A DNA stretch of 64,000 nt from Robiginitalea marina. GTDB taxonomy: Bacteria; Bacteroidota; Bacteroidia; Flavobacteriales; Flavobacteriaceae. The stretch lies in contig NZ_JAMXIB010000001.1 in the NCBI RefSeq assembly GCF_024006985.1, forward strand, positions 558,001 to 622,000, read 5' to 3'. Within the stretch, counting starts at the first letter, position 1. Each line of letters starts with the position of its first letter. Shown piece by piece: positions 1,652 to 8,923 of this stretch. The notes beneath the pieces were generated by a model. It was not told the origin of the DNA and ran no database searches. It saw nothing but the letters and a program-made list of their open reading frames with translations. Made by a program: the position numbers and the translations under genes.

Positions 1652-2443
1652 CAGGCGTTCGTAGATTTTGTCGGGGAGGATTTTTTTCAGAACCAACGAC
1701 AGACGCTGCAGGAAACTGCCGGCCGTATAATGCACTTTCGGGTGGCGCTGCTGCAGAATCTGGTATACTTTTCGGGCAAGTACCACGGGGTCTTTCCCCG
1801 AGGCCACGTGTTGGTCCATGAGGTCGAGGGTGCGCCCGTAGGGCTCCCGGTAAGGGGAGCCCTGGAGCATCGGGCAATGGTATCTGCCGGCGGCAATGTT
1901 GGTAGCAAAGTCCCCCGGGGCAAGGTTAGCCATCCGTATGCCGAATTCCCGGATTTCCATCCGGTAGGCCTCGGTAATGATCCCCAGGGCCCCTTTTGAG
2001 GCCGAATAAAACCCCCGGTAAGGAAGGCCCATGTAGCCCGCCACAGAGGTGATATTCAGGATGAAGCCCTTCCGGTGCTGACGCATGTGCGGTAAAACCG
2101 CGCGGATTACCCTTAGCGGGCCGTGAAAGTTTGTTTCGAAGGCATCCCCCACAGCCTCCCCGGGAGTCTCCTCGATCGGGCCCGTAATACCGACTCCGGC
2201 ATTGTTGATCAGTATATCGACACGGCCTTCCCGCCCGATAAGTTCCGCAATAGCCGCCTCGACGGAGGAGCTTTGCCGCACATCCATCTGAAGCAGGGGG
2301 AACAGGTCAAAACCGGGATATTTTTCAGGGCTGCGCGCAGTTCCATAAACCCGGTAACCGCGCGAAGCCAGGTACTGGCCCGTGGCCTTTCCCAGGCCGG
2401 AAGCCCCGCCCGTGATCAGAACAACTTCACTGTGATGCGCCAT
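1628..2443 (-). CDS. Short-chain dehydrogenase/reductase (SDR)
   Basis: 271 residues with the classical SDR layout: the nucleotide-binding motif TGGASGLGKATG near residue 11, NNAGVG, and the catalytic Tyr/Lys in FYSASKGALG after a Ser-containing strand (NITSVAG). It is a soluble NAD(P)-dependent oxidoreductase. The basic TARSPEK after the second strand leans towards NADP(H). The C-terminal ~80 residues are long and basic, as in SDRs acting on lipids or sterol-like compounds, but the substrate cannot be read from the sequence. It ends 51 bases before the transaldolase start on the same strand. Confidence 0.85.
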   Translation of the reverse strand: MAHHSEVVLITGGASGLGKATGQYLASRGYRVYGTARSPEKYPGFDLFPLLQMDVRQSSSVEAAIAELIGREGRVDILINNAGVGITGPIEETPGEAVGDAFETNFHGPLRVIRAVLPHMRQHRKGFILNITSVAGYMGLPYRGFYSASKGALGIITEAYRMEIREFGIRMANLAPGDFATNIAAGRYHCPMLQGSPYREPYGRTLDLMDQHVASGKDPVVLARKVYQILQQRHPKVHYTAGSFLQRLSLVLKKILPDKIYERLLLNHYKL

Positions 2444-4215: not shown

Positions 4216-4276
4216 AAAACCATAAATATTCTATGGTTTTTATATAGCCGCAAAATACAGGGGATCACTACCTTGG
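4216..4276 (+). promoter_or_regulatory. Palindromic activator-type promoter element, left copy
   Basis: AAAACCATA (4216-4224), seven bases, TATGGTTTT (4232-4240) form a perfect 9-bp inverted repeat. Two bases later TATAGCC (4243-4249) occupies the -33 slot, and after exactly 19 bases TACCTTGG (4269-4276) matches the -7 consensus TAnnTTTG at all but one position. The right copy at 8198-8258 has identical spacing at every step. The palindrome centre is 41 bases before the -7 box. The implied transcript start near 4282 supports the GTG start at 4295 for the LytTR gene. I infer a dimeric activator site; the binding protein is not proven. Confidence 0.75.
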
Positions 4277-4294
4277 GAGATATTTCAGCACCCT

Positions 4295-5026
4295 GTGGAA
4301 TACGCCTATGGCATCATATCCTCCAATGCGGCCACAAGCCTGCAACTCCAGCATTTCATGCAAGAGCACGATGCCTTCTATTGCGTATCCGTAGACCCCA
4401 CCGCCGGGGAAGGCATGAAAAACCTGCTGAAATTCAAGCCCGATGTGGTCTTTGTGGACCTCGACGGGCAGGCTGCCGAATGCTTCCGGATGTGGGGGGA
4501 ACTGGCACAATACCTCGAGGCACTCCCGGCAGGGGTGGCCCTGGCGTCGACCAACAGCTACGCCTATGATGCCCTTAAAAGCCAGTTCTTCGATTACTGG
4601 ATCCTCCCCCTTGAGGAATTTGAAATCAGGAAGACCCTATTGAAACTCCAGAAACGCCTGCCCAGGCCTGAAGTGCCCACTACCATCTGCCTGCAGTCTT
4701 ACAAGGATTACCAGTACCTGAACACCCGCGATATCCTCTACCTGCAAGCCGACAACAATGCTACTGATTTTGTGCTGGCCGACGGGCGCCGGGTAAGTGC
4801 CTATAAAACCCTGAAGAGTTTTGAAGGGCAACTCCCGCCAAACTTTGTGCGGATCCACCAGAGCTACATCCTGAACTGCGATTACGTTTCGCGCATCCAC
4901 TATGGCAAAAACCGGTGTACCCTCCGGGGCGGCCGTACGGAGCTCCCGTTCTCGCGGGGTTACCGGAAAAATGTGGATGCCCTGAAGGAACTCCTCACCC
5001 AGAAAGCCTACCTGGGGCATTCATGA
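4295..5026 (+). CDS. LytTR-family response regulator with a degenerate receiver
   Basis: 243 residues. Residues 1-120 have a CheY-like layout but key residues have decayed. The acidic pocket that should be DD is SSN (9-11) and the conserved lysine is Leu (YWILP, L104), while the Asp of VFVDLD (D55) and a Ser/Thr at 85-86 remain. Residues ~128-235 form a LytTR DNA-binding domain (DILYLQADNNATDFVLADG, LPPNFVRIHQSYILN, LPFSRGYRKNV). Such proteins bind direct repeats and control target genes. A start at GTG 4295 is favoured because the -7 box at 4269-4276 lies just upstream and no in-frame ATG is better. Phosphorylation-independent control is inferred. No adjacent LytS-type kinase is seen. Confidence 0.88.
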   Translation: MEYAYGIISSNAATSLQLQHFMQEHDAFYCVSVDPTAGEGMKNLLKFKPDVVFVDLDGQAAECFRMWGELAQYLEALPAGVALASTNSYAYDALKSQFFDYWILPLEEFEIRKTLLKLQKRLPRPEVPTTICLQSYKDYQYLNTRDILYLQADNNATDFVLADGRRVSAYKTLKSFEGQLPPNFVRIHQSYILNCDYVSRIHYGKNRCTLRGGRTELPFSRGYRKNVDALKELLTQKAYLGHS

Positions 5027-5154
5027 CCAGATTCTCCCAAAACCCTGTCAAATCCTCGCAGAGGCGCACCATTGGCTAAACGCGTTGGAAATCATGCAAT
5101 AAACCTTCTGAAGGATTGTAGTTTAGGACCAGTTAATGTTCAACCAAAACCCTG

Positions 5155-5322
5155 ATGAAGATGAAAAAATTAGTCCCTATTGCCGCGATTTGCCTGTTGT
5201 TTGCCGGAACCTTTGCCTCCTGCGAGGCCGAAACTTCCGTAGAGGATACCGAAGCCCTGTACAACCTGGAAGTACAGGCCGGTGAAGATGATAACCATCA
5301 AGTAAATGGTCGGAATGGATAA
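5155..5322 (+). CDS. Small secreted lipoprotein/lipopeptide (53-55 aa)
   Basis: An ATG at 5155 (or 5161) opens a 55- or 53-codon frame ending at 5322. It has a basic start (MKKL), a hydrophobic stretch (VPIAAICLLFAGTFA) and a lipobox-like FASC, so the mature product would be a lipid-anchored peptide of about 33 residues. That peptide is acidic, then ends in polar Asn/Gly-rich sequence (HQVNGRNG). Codon usage and the following terminator (5350-5376) support a real gene. Similar short lipoproteins are common in Flavobacteriia beside TPR kinases and NarL-type regulators (recalled, not searched). A signal or ligand role for the neighbouring kinase is inference. A weak -7-like TAGTTTAG is at 5119-5126. 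Confidence 0.75.
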   Translation: MKMKKLVPIAAICLLFAGTFASCEAETSVEDTEALYNLEVQAGEDDNHQVNGRNG

Positions 5323-5349
5323 CTTTTTTAAGGGATATTCCTATTTAAA

Positions 5350-5376
5350 AGAGCCCCAGACTTCGGGGCTTTTTTA
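5350..5376 (+). terminator. Rho-independent terminator after the small lipoprotein gene
   Basis: AGCCCC (5352-5357) pairs with GGGGCT (5365-5370) across a seven-base loop and is followed by a run of T. It separates the small lipoprotein gene from the kinase gene, so the two may be expressed at different levels. Confidence 0.85.
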
Positions 5377-5403
5377 TATCTTAAAGGTAAAATACAGCGT
5401 GCC

Positions 5404-7476
5404 ATGGGTAGAGTGGTCCACATCCTTACCGCAAGCCTTGCCTTCTTTTTTGCGCATGCCCAGCAGCCCGGACCCGGGATATCGCGCCAACTGCTGGTGT
5501 GGAAGGACAGCCTTGAACGCCCCTCCACCGAAGACAGGGTCAAAAGGGAGCTGATCGGCCGGATTTTCGACAACCGGGACCACCTCTGGCCCGACACCCT
5601 GTTCCCGCATGTTCTGGCCCGGCTTTCCTACCACGCCGTGGACCTAACGGATGACTCCCTCTTTCTCGCCATCAACCGCGAGGCCCGTTTGGTGGCCCGC
5701 TCCTTCCGGGATACCCTGGCCCTGGGCAGCGCCTACTGGGACCTGGGCTGGTACCATGAAAAAACCCTGCAGCGCGACAGCGCCTACTACTATTACTTCC
5801 TGGCCAAAGACCTCCTCCAGGCCCGGGGAGACCTCGCCTCCACGGCTTCCCTCTACCGGAAGATGGCCTCGATGCAGAACCTCTTAAAGGATTACGCCGG
5901 GGCGGAGGCCAACCTGGTGGAGGCCATCAGAATTTCGGGTATTGAGGAGGATAAGAGAGGGCTCTTCCGCAGTTACCACATGTTAGGCACCAACCTGAAA
6001 GACCAGGGGTTGTACCCGGAGGCCCTGGACTATTTTGAACGGGCCAGGGGATACCTCCGGGAAATTGACGGAGGTCCCAATGAATGGTATGCCTTCTACA
6101 ACAACCTTGGGAACGTGTACCGGGCTTCAGGGAATTATCAACTGGCGGCGGAATACTATCGGCAAGCCATTGAAAATGACAGTTTAGAATACAAAAACCC
6201 GCGTGAATTCAGCCTTTACAAAACCAACCTGGCGACGGCGCTCTATGCTTTGGGTCGAATACAGGAAGCTGAAAAGGCCTACCTGGAGGCCCTGGCGATC
6301 AGGCAATCCGGAGGGAATGCTGTGGATCTGGCTTCGTCCCATTACTACCTGGCCCGTCTATACCAGGGCGAAGGCAGGGATTCCCTTGCTGAAAACCACC
6401 TGGAACAGGCCCTTGGATATGCGGAAGCCAGCAATAGCCCGGAACGGCTGCTGGAGCTCTATCCGCTTGCCGCCCAAATCGTTCCTCAGGAGGCGCCCTA
6501 TTTTTTTCAACAGTATGCAGCCCTGAACCAGGAATTACTGGAAAATGAAAGGGACGAAAGAAACCGGTTTGCCCGTATCCGCTACAATACCGAACAATAC
6601 ATCGCCCAGAATGAGGCCCTGGAGCAACAGCTCCTCCTGTGGGTGGGCATCGCCCTGGGGGTTTTCCTGCTCGGGGCAGCGGCCGTGGTGATTATCCTGC
6701 AGCGCATCCGGAACCAGAAACTGCGGTTCCAGCAGCAGCAACAGGCGGTAAACCAGGAAATTTTCAACCTGATGCTGGCCCAGAATGAGAAAATCGAACA
6801 GGAAAAACAAAAGGTGCAAAAACGCATATCCGAAGAGTTGCACGACGGGGTCCTGGGGGAATTGAACGGCATACGGATGGTGCTCCTGGGGCTTAACGGG
6901 AAATCAGACCCGGCTTCCCTCTCCATGAGGACCAAAGCCATAGAAAAGCTTCAGGGCCTGCAGGAGGATATTCGGGGGATATCCCACGAGTTGAGCAATG
7001 CGGTTTACCGTAAAATCCATAATTTTACCCATTCGCTTACTGAGTTGGCAGAAGAAATTTCCCTGGGATCGGGCCTGCACTTTAATTGCCAGTACAACCA
7101 GGATGTTGACTGGGACGCCCTTCCTGGCGAGGTGAAGATCAACCTGTACCGGGTAATCCAGGAAAGCCTGCAGAACGTGGTAAAGCACGCCAGCGCCTCG
7201 GAAGTGACCCTCCAGATGGAAGGCGACAGCACCCATCTGGAGATCCATGTCAGGGACGATGGCAAAGGCTTCAACCCGAGGCTGGCCAGAAAGGGCATAG
7301 GCCTAAAAAATATCCAGTCGCGGGTTAGGGCCATCGGAGGCAAGCTGAAGGTATCGTCAGCACCCGGAAAGGGGACAACGCTTTCGGTGCTGCTGCCATG
7401 GCCGGGAGCAAACCCCCTGGCAGGCAGCCATCCTTCCTGGAAATACAGGAATACTGAAACACTTGAAACGGGATGA
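5404..7476 (+). CDS. TPR-containing sensor histidine kinase (HisKA_3/NarX type)
   Basis: 690 residues. A signal peptide (GRVVHILTASLAFFFAHAQ) is followed by about 360 residues of tetratricopeptide-like repeats (for example YPEALDYFERARGYL, YQLAAEYYRQAIEND, IQEAEKAYLEALAIR). A coiled segment, one membrane helix (~410-434), a second coiled coil, the HisKA_3 phosphoacceptor helix RISEELHDGVLGELN (His480) and an HATPase domain (N box ESLQNVVKHA, DDGKGF, GIGLKN) complete it. The TPR region is predicted periplasmic and the kinase cytoplasmic. It probably phosphorylates the regulator encoded next, whose ATG overlaps its stop. The small lipoprotein gene directly upstream encodes a plausible periplasmic partner of the TPR region. 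Confidence 0.93.
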   Translation: MGRVVHILTASLAFFFAHAQQPGPGISRQLLVWKDSLERPSTEDRVKRELIGRIFDNRDHLWPDTLFPHVLARLSYHAVDLTDDSLFLAINREARLVARSFRDTLALGSAYWDLGWYHEKTLQRDSAYYYYFLAKDLLQARGDLASTASLYRKMASMQNLLKDYAGAEANLVEAIRISGIEEDKRGLFRSYHMLGTNLKDQGLYPEALDYFERARGYLREIDGGPNEWYAFYNNLGNVYRASGNYQLAAEYYRQAIENDSLEYKNPREFSLYKTNLATALYALGRIQEAEKAYLEALAIRQSGGNAVDLASSHYYLARLYQGEGRDSLAENHLEQALGYAEASNSPERLLELYPLAAQIVPQEAPYFFQQYAALNQELLENERDERNRFARIRYNTEQYIAQNEALEQQLLLWVGIALGVFLLGAAAVVIILQRIRNQKLRFQQQQQAVNQEIFNLMLAQNEKIEQEKQKVQKRISEELHDGVLGELNGIRMVLLGLNGKSDPASLSMRTKAIEKLQGLQEDIRGISHELSNAVYRKIHNFTHSLTELAEEISLGSGLHFNCQYNQDVDWDALPGEVKINLYRVIQESLQNVVKHASASEVTLQMEGDSTHLEIHVRDDGKGFNPRLARKGIGLKNIQSRVRAIGGKLKVSSAPGKGTTLSVLLPWPGANPLAGSHPSWKYRNTETLETG

Positions 7477-8153
7477 TGGAGACGGATCAAATAGTACGGA
7501 TACTTGCTGTGGATGACCACGAGATGACCACCCTGGGGTATAAGTATATCCTGGAAGACACTGCTTTCAAGGGGTTTCGGGTCGACCTCGATACCGCAAA
7601 AACCTTTGAGGAAGCCAAAACCAAACTGGAGCAGAGTACCCGCGGGCTTCCCTACCGCATCCTCCTGCTCGACATCCAGTTGTCGCAGGGAGAAAGCGGA
7701 CCCACCAAATCCGGTGAGGAACTGGGAATCCTGGCGCGGAAAATCACCCCGAACACGCGAATTGTGTTTATGTCTTCCTTCAGCGATAACTACCGGATCA
7801 ACAGCGTAATGCAAAGCGTGGACCCGGAAGGGTATATGGTGAAATCCGAAATCGACCAGCCTTCGCTCCAGGCCATGGTGGAAACCGTCCTGGAATCGCC
7901 ACCCTACTATACCCAAAGGGCACTCACCGCAATTCGGAAGCGAATGGCCAATACCATCCACCTCGATGAGAACGACAAGAAAATACTGTATTGCCTTTCC
8001 CAGGGTACCAAAACCAAAGACATGGTGGAACATATTTCCCTTTCCCTGCCCTCGATTGAAAATCGGAAACGACAGATAAAAGCGCTCTTCGGCATCGAAA
8101 AGCAAAACGACCAGGCCCTGATTGCAGAGGCGCGCAGGCGGGGATTCCTCTGA
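7473..8153 (+). CDS. NarL/LuxR-type response regulator
   Basis: 226 residues. The receiver is intact: acidic pair DDH near residue 15, phosphoacceptor Asp67 in LLLDIQL, MSS for the Thr/Ser position and the lysine in YMVKSE. The C-terminal ~65 residues replace the usual LuxR consensus with LDENDKKILYCLSQGTKTKD and IENRKRQIKALFGI, a variant helix-turn-helix I associate with flavobacterial regulators paired with TPR kinases. Its ATG overlaps the kinase stop, so they form a cognate pair. It is the leading candidate to bind the two matching palindromes at 4216 and 8198; that is inference. Confidence 0.92.
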   Translation: MMETDQIVRILAVDDHEMTTLGYKYILEDTAFKGFRVDLDTAKTFEEAKTKLEQSTRGLPYRILLLDIQLSQGESGPTKSGEELGILARKITPNTRIVFMSSFSDNYRINSVMQSVDPEGYMVKSEIDQPSLQAMVETVLESPPYYTQRALTAIRKRMANTIHLDENDKKILYCLSQGTKTKDMVEHISLSLPSIENRKRQIKALFGIEKQNDQALIAEARRRGFL

Positions 8154-8156
8154 AAC

Positions 8157-8185
8157 CGGCCCCGTAGTCCCGGGGATATTTTAAG
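8157..8185 (+). terminator. Possible weak terminator after the response regulator
   Basis: CCCCG (8160-8164) can pair with CGGGG (8171-8175) with a six-base loop, followed by ATATTTTAAG rather than a clean T run. It lies directly after the regulator stop and before the right palindrome, so it could insulate that promoter. Confidence 0.35.
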
Positions 8186-8197
8186 TAAATTCTTACA

Positions 8198-8258
8198 AAA
8201 ACCATAAAACTTTTATGGTTTTCCTATAACCCCGCCTTCCGGATTAGGCCTAATTTTG
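8198..8258 (+). promoter_or_regulatory. Palindromic activator-type promoter element, right copy
   Basis: AAAACCATA (8198-8206), seven bases, TATGGTTTT (8214-8222); here the arms extend to a 12-bp inverted repeat around one central base. TATAACC (8225-8231) follows after two bases, then 19 bases, then a perfect -7 box TAATTTTG (8251-8258). There is no TTG/TTTG -33 box, its slot being taken by TATAACC, as at the left copy. The start of transcription is expected near 8264, about 20 bases before the orphan gene's ATG. Confidence 0.8.
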
Positions 8259-8284
8259 AATAAAGATTGCTAATCCTGAAGGCT

Positions 8285-8923
8285 ATGCGCGATTCCCTCA
8301 TGTTCCCAAGGCTTCTTGCACCAGGCATACGGACCCCCCTCCACCTTCATGGGCTGGATGAATTCACCCGCTCCCTGGAGCGCCTGTTTTATGCCCGGGC
8401 CCGGGTGGAGTGTACCGCCATAAGCAAGTCGTCCGCAAGCTTTACCATCTCCCTTGAATGCCCCCTGAGCATAAGGGAGGTGCTGGATGCCTATGGCAAC
8501 GGCTGCTGGGGGCATCAGCGGATCGAAGGTGGAAACGGGGCCGAATGCAGGAACCTTGGGTCCCTCCACCGGGAGCTGGAACAGCGGAGTGGCCTTAAAC
8601 TCGTAATGGAGGAGCTTTCATTACAATGTGCAGACACCCTCCTGGTATTGCAAAAGATTCGGGCCGAAGGGGTCCAAAAGGACTTCTACCCCCTCTTGCA
8701 TCTCCTCGGCCTGCAGGATGCCAGGGTTTGGGACCGCGCTGAAGGAAGGCCTGTTGAAATATATGCCCCGGTACGGTTGGCCAATCGAAAAAACACCCCC
8801 GGGCTTTCAGATGACCCCATTCGCTATTGGGCCATATATTGCGAAAAAAAGGAAGAACCCCTGATTTTTGATTCATGCCTGATGCGGGAAGTAGAGGGCG
8901 ACCTAAGCCTTAACCTCGGCTGA
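8285..8923 (+). CDS. Orphan protein of unknown function controlled by the right palindrome
   Basis: 212 residues from the ATG at 8285, preceded by AAGG at suitable spacing and about 20 bases from the predicted transcript start. I do not recognise a family. It has no signal peptide or membrane segment and seven Cys spread over the chain, and it looks soluble and cytosolic. Visible segments include a His-rich early stretch (PLHLHGLDEF), a glycine-rich patch (YGNGCWGHQRIEGGNG) and a helical middle (SLHRELEQRSGLKLVMEEL). Its promoter architecture equals that of the LytTR gene at the other edge of the island, so it is probably an output or modulator of the same signalling system. Confidence 0.7.
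   Translation: MRDSLMFPRLLAPGIRTPLHLHGLDEFTRSLERLFYARARVECTAISKSSASFTISLECPLSIREVLDAYGNGCWGHQRIEGGNGAECRNLGSLHRELEQRSGLKLVMEELSLQCADTLLVLQKIRAEGVQKDFYPLLHLLGLQDARVWDRAEGRPVEIYAPVRLANRKNTPGLSDDPIRYWAIYCEKKEEPLIFDSCLMREVEGDLSLNLG

Follow-up and report, generated by a model that had tools for sequence, protein, structure and literature searches.

Paired palindromic promoters of fixed geometry in a putative peptide-signalling island of Robiginitalea marina and related Flavobacteriaceae

The window analyzed here comprises 64,000 nucleotides (nt) of the genome of Robiginitalea marina, a member of the Flavobacteriaceae (assembly GCF_024006985.1, contig NZ_JAMXIB010000001.1, positions 558,001 to 622,000). 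Near its beginning lies an island of five genes on the forward strand, encoding a LytTR-domain regulator, a small secreted-peptide precursor, a histidine kinase with a TPR (tetratricopeptide repeat) array, a NarL/VraR-type response regulator and an orphan protein (Table 1). Two promoters built in the same manner, one before the LytTR gene and the other before the orphan gene, carry a palindrome at a fixed distance from the -7 box. The joint reading of the island, which is held with moderate confidence, is a self-contained positive-feedback circuit of peptide signalling that resembles quorum sensing.

Table 1. Genes and predicted DNA elements of the island, with coordinates as positions in the window.
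Feature	Coordinates	Strand	Basis
Predicted palindromic operator, copy 1, AAAACCATA-N7-TATGGTTTT	4216..4240	+	Upstream of LytTR gene; exact match; fixed spacing in 76/79 islands; palindromic-promoter profile (R1) E 2.4e-12 in own genome (site in training set)
TATAG directly 3' of operator copy 1, at the expected -33 box place	4243..4247	+	Column +26 is T in 44/45 and 74/77 aligned promoters
-7 box TACCTTGG of LytTR promoter	4269..4276	+	Predicted transcription start near 4281; box span -12 to -5 from an excerpt of PMC9723704
LytTR-domain regulator, degenerate receiver-like N-terminus, 243 amino acids (aa), GTG start	4295..5026	+	PF04397 E 2.9e-19; alignment
Direct repeat 1, AAATCCTCGCAGA, family consensus AAATACTCACAGA	5050..5062	+	Promoter comparison
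Direct repeat 2, ATTGGCTAAACG, family consensus TTTACTAAAA	5071..5082	+	21 base pairs (bp) after repeat 1; self-similarity peak at lag 21
-7 box TAGTTTAG of peptide-gene promoter	5119..5126	+	Direct-repeat profile (R2) E 7.8e-5 at 5049-5126, best in own genome (site in training set)
Small precursor of a secreted peptide, 55 aa, ATG 5155 or 5161, signal peptide lipoprotein-like by eye	5155..5322	+	Three relatives at E 3e-6 to 1e-5; small precursor gene in same place in islands
Terminator-like hairpin and T run after peptide gene	5353..5375	+	5323-5376 folds at -18.9 kcal/mol
Histidine kinase with TPR array, signal peptide (by eye), a single membrane helix (410-432), HATPase_c and a region like HisKA_3	5404..7476	+	TPR_12 4.4e-24, HATPase_c 1.9e-14, HisKA_3 below cut-off
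NarL/VraR-type response regulator, complete receiver, divergent helix-turn-helix (HTH)	7473..8153	+	Response_reg 4e-5 (Pfam cut-off not reached); VraR 5hev matched by profile over positions 1-208 of 219, E 2.3e-5
Predicted palindromic operator, copy 2, AAAACCATA-N7-TATGGTTTT	8198..8222	+	Upstream of orphan gene; exact match; 93/101 islands; R1 profile E 3.1e-10
TATAA directly 3' of operator copy 2	8225..8229	+	Promoter alignment
-7 box TAATTTTG of orphan promoter	8251..8258	+	Predicted transcription start near 8263; PMC9723704 (excerpt)
Orphan, 212 aa from ATG 8285, fast-evolving	8285..8923	+	No signal peptide by eye; no family; 17-28% identity of 52 relatives to window copy; AlphaFold2 pLDDT 84.6

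The first-pass annotation of this DNA had described two promoter-like elements of equal architecture, and both copies of the palindrome were recovered with 0 mismatches, the distance from the palindrome center to the -7 box being 41 bp in each promoter. No third copy had been seen in the window, and none is present within 3 mismatches (0.07 expected in shuffled sequences); a genome-wide pattern search, of the kind that had been proposed as a check, located the shorter pattern ACCATA-N7-TATGGT at these two places only in the 3.25-Mb genome. With up to two mismatches, the pattern AAACCATA-N7-TATGGTTT is found at one extra place, which has two mismatches, and the reversed control pattern likewise at three places. 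A weight matrix of 61 columns, trained on relatives together with the window's own two sites, assigned scores of 54.2 and 47.2 to these sites and -19.9 to the runner-up on their strand; read in reverse on the opposite strand, the two palindromes scored 9.4 and -1.7, followed by -8.9 for the next place. With the R1 profile, the next match in the own genome beyond the two sites and their opposite-strand readings has an E-value of 0.21.

The conservation of the island was assessed by scanning species genomes with a profile of the regulator, and the best 80 of 207 relatives were used in addition to the window; these loci belong to genera of the Flavobacteriaceae or to the family as such, three being assigned only to Bacteroidia or Bacteroidetes. 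The order of the LytTR gene, small gene, TPR histidine kinase, NarL-type regulator and orphan is kept around most of the 80 loci, as far as the contigs reach, and the annotated placement of one palindrome before the LytTR gene and the other before the orphan gene recurs in the related islands. Where the palindrome was the sole criterion for picking sites, 28/59 LytTR-side and 69/81 orphan-side places have an intact AAACC-N13-GGTTT core. Sites with at most two core mismatches (45 on the LytTR side and 77 on the orphan side, 14/59 and 4/81 being left out) were stacked without gaps on the palindrome, and the -7 box played no part in this selection. In the stack, TA occupies +52/+53 (T in 44/45 and 72/77, A in 45/45 and 77/77) and TT occupies +56/+57 (45/45 and 44/45 on the LytTR side, 77/77 and 76/77 on the orphan side), at the same distance from the palindrome in both promoters and with a column agreement of 94-100%. 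Because TA and TT fall at a fixed distance even though the box was not used in picking, the comparison shows the predicted promoter architecture to be under selection and common to both promoters. The first-pass annotation had suspected the spacing to be selected and had noted that the bases in between differ, and the aligned relatives agree, as most of these bases are weakly conserved.

TA and TT, at their fixed place in the 45 and 77 promoters, are those of the Bacteroidota sigma-A -7 box TAnnTTTG, from which the LytTR box of the window differs at one base. Sigma-A promoters of Bacteroidota also have a -33 TTG consensus, which is not present in these aligned promoters; TATA(G/A) stands there instead, marked by the T at +26 (44/45 and 74/77). 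The annotated TATAnCC element therefore persists in part, TATA(G/A) being kept across relatives whereas CC is not conserved. Since the flavobacterial -7 box spans -12 to -5 according to an excerpt of PMC9723704, the leaders should extend about 14 nt to GTG 4295 and about 22 nt to ATG 8285, as predicted from the box positions. Conservation upstream of orthologous LytTR and orphan genes had been set beforehand as a test, for which 102 islands, all with distinct regulator DNA, were examined for the exact 41-bp geometry with CC and GG in place. This spacing is found at 76/79 LytTR sides and 93/101 orphan sides, a count in which the best TAnnTT box was chosen before counting and which is thus less blind than the ungapped logos. 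At several of the sites that fail (L085, L088, L091, L119, L217, L227), the palindrome is displaced by one base.

It is exceedingly improbable that the palindromes are ordinary inverted repeats, for instance a copied element, with no regulatory meaning. The bare palindrome AACCATA-N7-TATGGTT is indeed as frequent as a reversed control (30 vs 29 of 299 family genomes), and at five of the 30 loci fetched (L003, L017, L019, L023, L024) it consists of codons for KPYVIYG(Y/F) in an open frame; its frequency was accordingly dropped as evidence. A further palindrome about 1 kb before the LytTR gene in many islands was likewise rejected, as a chance product of coding sequence: L058 and L116 have it at KPYVIYGY codons inside a large open reading frame for a secreted protein. 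Because the bare palindrome is no commoner than its control, the evidence rests on position and fixed spacing, and the annotation's random-occurrence test comes out differently for the two: the bare palindrome does not stand out, whereas the palindrome with its spacing and position is far beyond chance. The place and the spacing to the -7 box are fixed in two promoters over many genera, and the arms and the box are conserved where the rest has diverged.

The two sites also change together. In the 74 islands that contain both, the sites within a genome share 4.92 of 6 variable arm bases, compared with 3.32 between genomes, and 0/10000 permutations reached the observed value; the 7 central palindrome bases show weaker pairing (4.55 within vs 3.87 between genomes). 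Such paired change would be explained by one trans-acting factor reading both sites. Among the 299 family genomes, 47 carry a close regulator (at least 289 bits), 24 of them without a strong promoter match, and 21 of those 24 (G001 and 20 others) were examined as further islands. Most of them keep the geometry with altered arms: one group has ACCCCA...TGGGG in its two promoters, another has ACCTC...AAGGT in its two, and one genome has an ACCGTA...TACGGT-like form; in one lineage, both sites are now CCCCA-N7-ATGGGG-like, with the spacing unchanged.

The factor predicted with good confidence to act at both palindromes, as its operators, is the NarL-type regulator. Its residues D14, D15, D67 and K124 are invariant in 9/9 aligned copies, so that the acidic pair, the phospho-Asp and the Lys are all present, and its C-terminus gave no Pfam HTH match at E <= 0.001. 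The first-pass annotation had named this regulator, and covariation at the HTH together with the co-occurrence of promoter and regulator lends support to that proposal. When the palindromes were sorted into four classes and compared with protein columns (regulator, 86 islands; LytTR, 72 islands; 16/102 loci in no class left out), 7 of the 10 most informative regulator columns proved to be residues 185-195, at the HTH (hypergeometric 1e-8), which, judged from the family pattern, would cover the turn and the first part of the recognition helix. At E <= 3e-6, the promoter profile matches 23/47 genomes with a close regulator and 0/252 others, an association that is partly built in because the profile was trained on the window and on islands of some tested species; nine other genomes among the matches listed have E-values of 1e-4 or weaker. 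Within the genus, strong promoter matches are present in exactly 7/10 genomes, those carrying the regulator.

The reverse assignment, in which LytTR binds the palindromes and controls itself and the orphan while the NarL-type regulator acts at the direct repeats of the peptide gene or elsewhere, appears unlikely. Regulators commonly autoregulate their own promoters, which would suit it, as would the near-invariant palindrome core. According to an excerpt of PMC4847170, LytTR sites may consist of 9-11-nt repeats in direct or inverse orientation, separated by 11-13 nt, and LytTR stays a rival because LytTR proteins may use inverse repeats. The palindrome type, however, covaries more with the HTH part of the regulator (mean information 0.393), where the top columns cluster, than with the DNA-binding part of LytTR (0.188), and direct repeats at a pitch of 21 bp suit LytTR. 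The corresponding means are 0.291 for the receiver, 0.308 for the kinase, 0.219 for LytTR as a whole and 0.079 for the housekeeping serine hydroxymethyltransferase.

LytTR itself would stand one step further down. Of eight copies, six carry N at the phospho-Asp position, one carries H and one, that of the window, carries D; as the receiver-like part mostly lacks the phosphate-accepting Asp, the protein probably works by its amount. Its predicted target is the promoter of the peptide gene, the third promoter in the island; neither this promoter nor the gene at 5155-5322 was mentioned in the first-pass annotation. In relatives, a TAnTTTAG box lies 92 nt past the LytTR stop in most loci and is preceded by AATACTCACARA and TTTACTAAAA, with ACT cores 21 bp apart, both of them exactly ACT in 33/63 loci. 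Self-similarity at lag 21 amounts to 4.38/9, compared with 1.35 to 3.33 at the other lags from 10 to 39, and in the own genome the next match of the R2 direct-repeat profile after the window copy has an E-value of 0.078. The 21-bp pitch fits the form of LytTR sites given in the PMC4847170 excerpt, and the step from LytTR through the direct repeats to the peptide gene is considered reasonably probable.

Between the LytTR and kinase genes, 63/64 islands and 19/20 further ones have a short gene whose product has a basic beginning and a hydrophobic segment, the gene starting 128-158 nt past the LytTR stop in 59/63; the same finder gave 2/63 on the reverse strand and 10/630 in shuffles. The relatives of the precursor have a signal-peptide-like start and tails with 30% acidic and 6% basic residues, and a simple lipobox pattern fits 60/82 of them. 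The tail is tandemly repeated in 17/81 readable precursors and in 0/1620 shuffled tails, the count having changed from 18/82 when the L092 peptide, which reads as masked letters, was dropped. Units include TDGDDTPT five times (L060), CTTCDDIDM three times (L048) and CDDCSHDKDERE eight times (L227). Six and eight near-identical CDDC-containing repeats are seen in the L225 and L227 precursors, respectively. The family matches of one long tandem-repeat precursor were rejected as CxxC zinc-ribbon look-alikes. NVEALA peptides were considered as a possible relative of the precursors; the word was not found in the open-licence literature searched.

Provided that the rest of the reading holds, the peptide would be somewhat more probably than otherwise the signal of the kinase. 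The mean identity of the kinase is 24-41% in the TPR part and 44-72% in the kinase part, and the TPR part is thus the least conserved, a pattern that would suit a receptor keeping pace with a variable ligand. It is also conceivable, if rather doubtful, that promoters and regulators act as described while the precursor is an effector, either bacteriocin-like or a surface lipopeptide, and the kinase senses something else. Such a role would accord with the lipobox pattern, with the lack of a credible family model in the seven precursors scanned, and with targets outside the island in other genomes (patatin, HNH nuclease, tyrosinase, peptidase-like) that resemble possible competition or stress regulons. 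The precursor gene is, on the other hand, present between LytTR and kinase in nearly every island, its tail diverges between species alongside the fast-evolving sensor, and its short acidic tandem repeats resemble, by analogy, multi-copy signal precursors.

On the reading of the peptide as a signal, the circuit would run as follows. Through its periplasmic TPR domain, the kinase would sense a peptide released from the lipoprotein-like precursor and would phosphorylate the neighboring NarL/VraR-type regulator, and a dimer of the phosphorylated regulator would bind the inverted repeat, centered at about -53, to activate sigma-A promoters with a -7 box of the TAnnTTTG type and no recognisable -33 TTG. 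One palindromic promoter would thereby yield LytTR and the other the orphan, and LytTR, bound to the 21-bp-spaced direct repeats at 5050-5082, would drive the small secreted-peptide gene and hence more peptide. The kinase and regulator genes would themselves have no palindromic operator, and no operator-like score was found upstream of them in 63 loci. As the own genome holds no further strong promoter-profile match, the predicted loop looks closed there. The DNA elements rest on conservation (of the elements, of their spacing and of their paired change); the protein-DNA and peptide-kinase contacts and the direction of control are what we infer from sequence.

Several observations weigh against this circuit or against the regulator assigned to it. 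The best single-column covariation with palindrome class is 0.66 in LytTR against 0.71 in the regulator, and kinase columns covary more on average than LytTR columns (0.308 vs 0.219). Covariation is confounded because the palindrome types are distributed along phylogeny and have switched independently just a few times; phylogeny confounds the level of the signal, less so its place in the regulator. Complementarity between the arms of a site is clearly above independence at one position pair only (48 vs 34.5 of 90), and the direct repeats of the window fit their consensus in part (TCCT and GGCT for TACT). The window peptide is single, without a tandem repeat, and a terminator-like hairpin follows the peptide gene in just 18/63 loci in a simple scan. 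Divergence of the TPR part could reflect the ordinary fast evolution of an exposed domain, and no dedicated exporter or processing gene (of the AgrB or ComA type) is found among the eight proteins scanned between 2695 and 10229.

The orphan keeps its place and its predicted regulation despite the low identity of the 52 aligned relatives to the window copy. Its start is most likely ATG 8285 and not TTG 8267, since the first start codons of relatives mostly lie 78-98 nt past the site. By sequence, no solved relative better than E 0.47 was obtained, and its predicted alpha-beta fold gave no Foldseek match at E <= 0.001, the best VIA-align hit having a Z of 4.2. The island is preceded by genes for a glutamine cyclotransferase and a thioesterase and followed by a gene for serine hydroxymethyltransferase; the gene further downstream is presumably fumarylacetoacetase-like. 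In many relatives, a gene for a large secreted protein (L058, 3071-4612, and similar genes) lies between the thioesterase and LytTR genes, for which the window has no space.

In other genomes, palindromic promoters outside the island stand before genes for patatin, tyrosinase, HNH nuclease, phosphorylase-superfamily, peptidase-like and secreted proteins. Loci of this kind are L199, L201, L205, L207, L193, L194, L211, L206, L037 and L040, and their products also comprise an endonuclease/phosphatase and proteins of 624, 652 and 705 aa of no family. In the same genus, L196 has a second tandem-repeat small lipoprotein (2208-2396, forward strand) behind a palindromic promoter outside the island. 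With these extra promoters, the output of the circuit seems to differ by species.

Signalling between cells by means of peptides is most familiar from Gram-positive bacteria, and Bacteroidota are abundant in marine and gut habitats; no description of such a peptide quorum-sensing system in Bacteroidota was found in the open-licence literature searched. With its operators, two regulators, sensor and precursor, the island brings together in marine bacteria a complete set of parts that can be tested. It also provides a well-defined regulated-promoter architecture for the phylum and a natural example in which two operators and the regulator that probably reads them have shifted their specificity jointly. 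More tentatively, and with slightly less than even confidence, a family of peptide-pheromone circuits may be proposed for the Flavobacteriaceae, in which acidic, often multi-copy peptides would be derived from lipoprotein-like precursors and received by a periplasmic TPR kinase, with a relay from a NarL-type regulator (inverted repeats) through LytTR (direct repeats) to the peptide, and with species-specific extra targets of the effector type.

Among known systems, FimS/FimR of Porphyromonas gingivalis is similar in that a TPR kinase stands beside a NarL-family regulator in Bacteroidota, FimR being a NarL-type regulator, and a FimS model matches kinase residues 109-439 at 7.1e-9. The kinase scores 34.5 bits against a cut-off of 600 for the FimS equivalog model NCBIfam NF053520, and no LytTR or peptide gene is known to stand beside FimS/FimR. 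FimS/R was not required for the response to a streptococcal peptide in one study, according to an excerpt of PMC5431200. The VraR class of NarL/FixJ regulators shares the whole-length profile match (5hev, 2.3e-5) and an inverted-repeat operator, which is predicted here; the operator sequence and the 41-bp geometry are those described above, and Pfam assigned no HTH family to the C-terminus. BtsR, YpdB and AgrA have in common with the LytTR regulator of the island the LytTR domain and direct repeats of 21-bp pitch at the presumed target, BtsR being its best NCBIfam match, far below the cut-off (58.9 of 246 bits). Unlike in these regulators, the receiver-like part here mostly lacks the phospho-Asp, and the protein would act downstream of another regulator.

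The Agr, Com and Pln systems of Gram-positive peptide autoinduction are similar in design, as a small secreted precursor, a sensor kinase and a LytTR regulator are found in one island with a loop, and a precursor gene does lie beside the kinase and regulator genes here. The island differs in showing no dedicated exporter or processing gene, in its signal-peptide/lipoprotein-like precursor, in a TPR sensor outside the cytoplasm, in the NarL-type regulator beside the kinase and in LytTR as a probable second tier. RRNPP receptors (Rap, Rgg, NprR, PlcR), whose TPRs are cytoplasmic and bind short processed peptides, resemble the kinase in that its TPR domain is proposed to bind such a peptide, whereas the island TPRs are located between a signal peptide recognised by eye at the N-terminus and the hydrophobic helix and are thus not placed in the cytoplasm. 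Compared with these systems, the predicted circuit would be a variant of peptide two-component signalling, and the finding at the level of DNA is real and well beyond chance.

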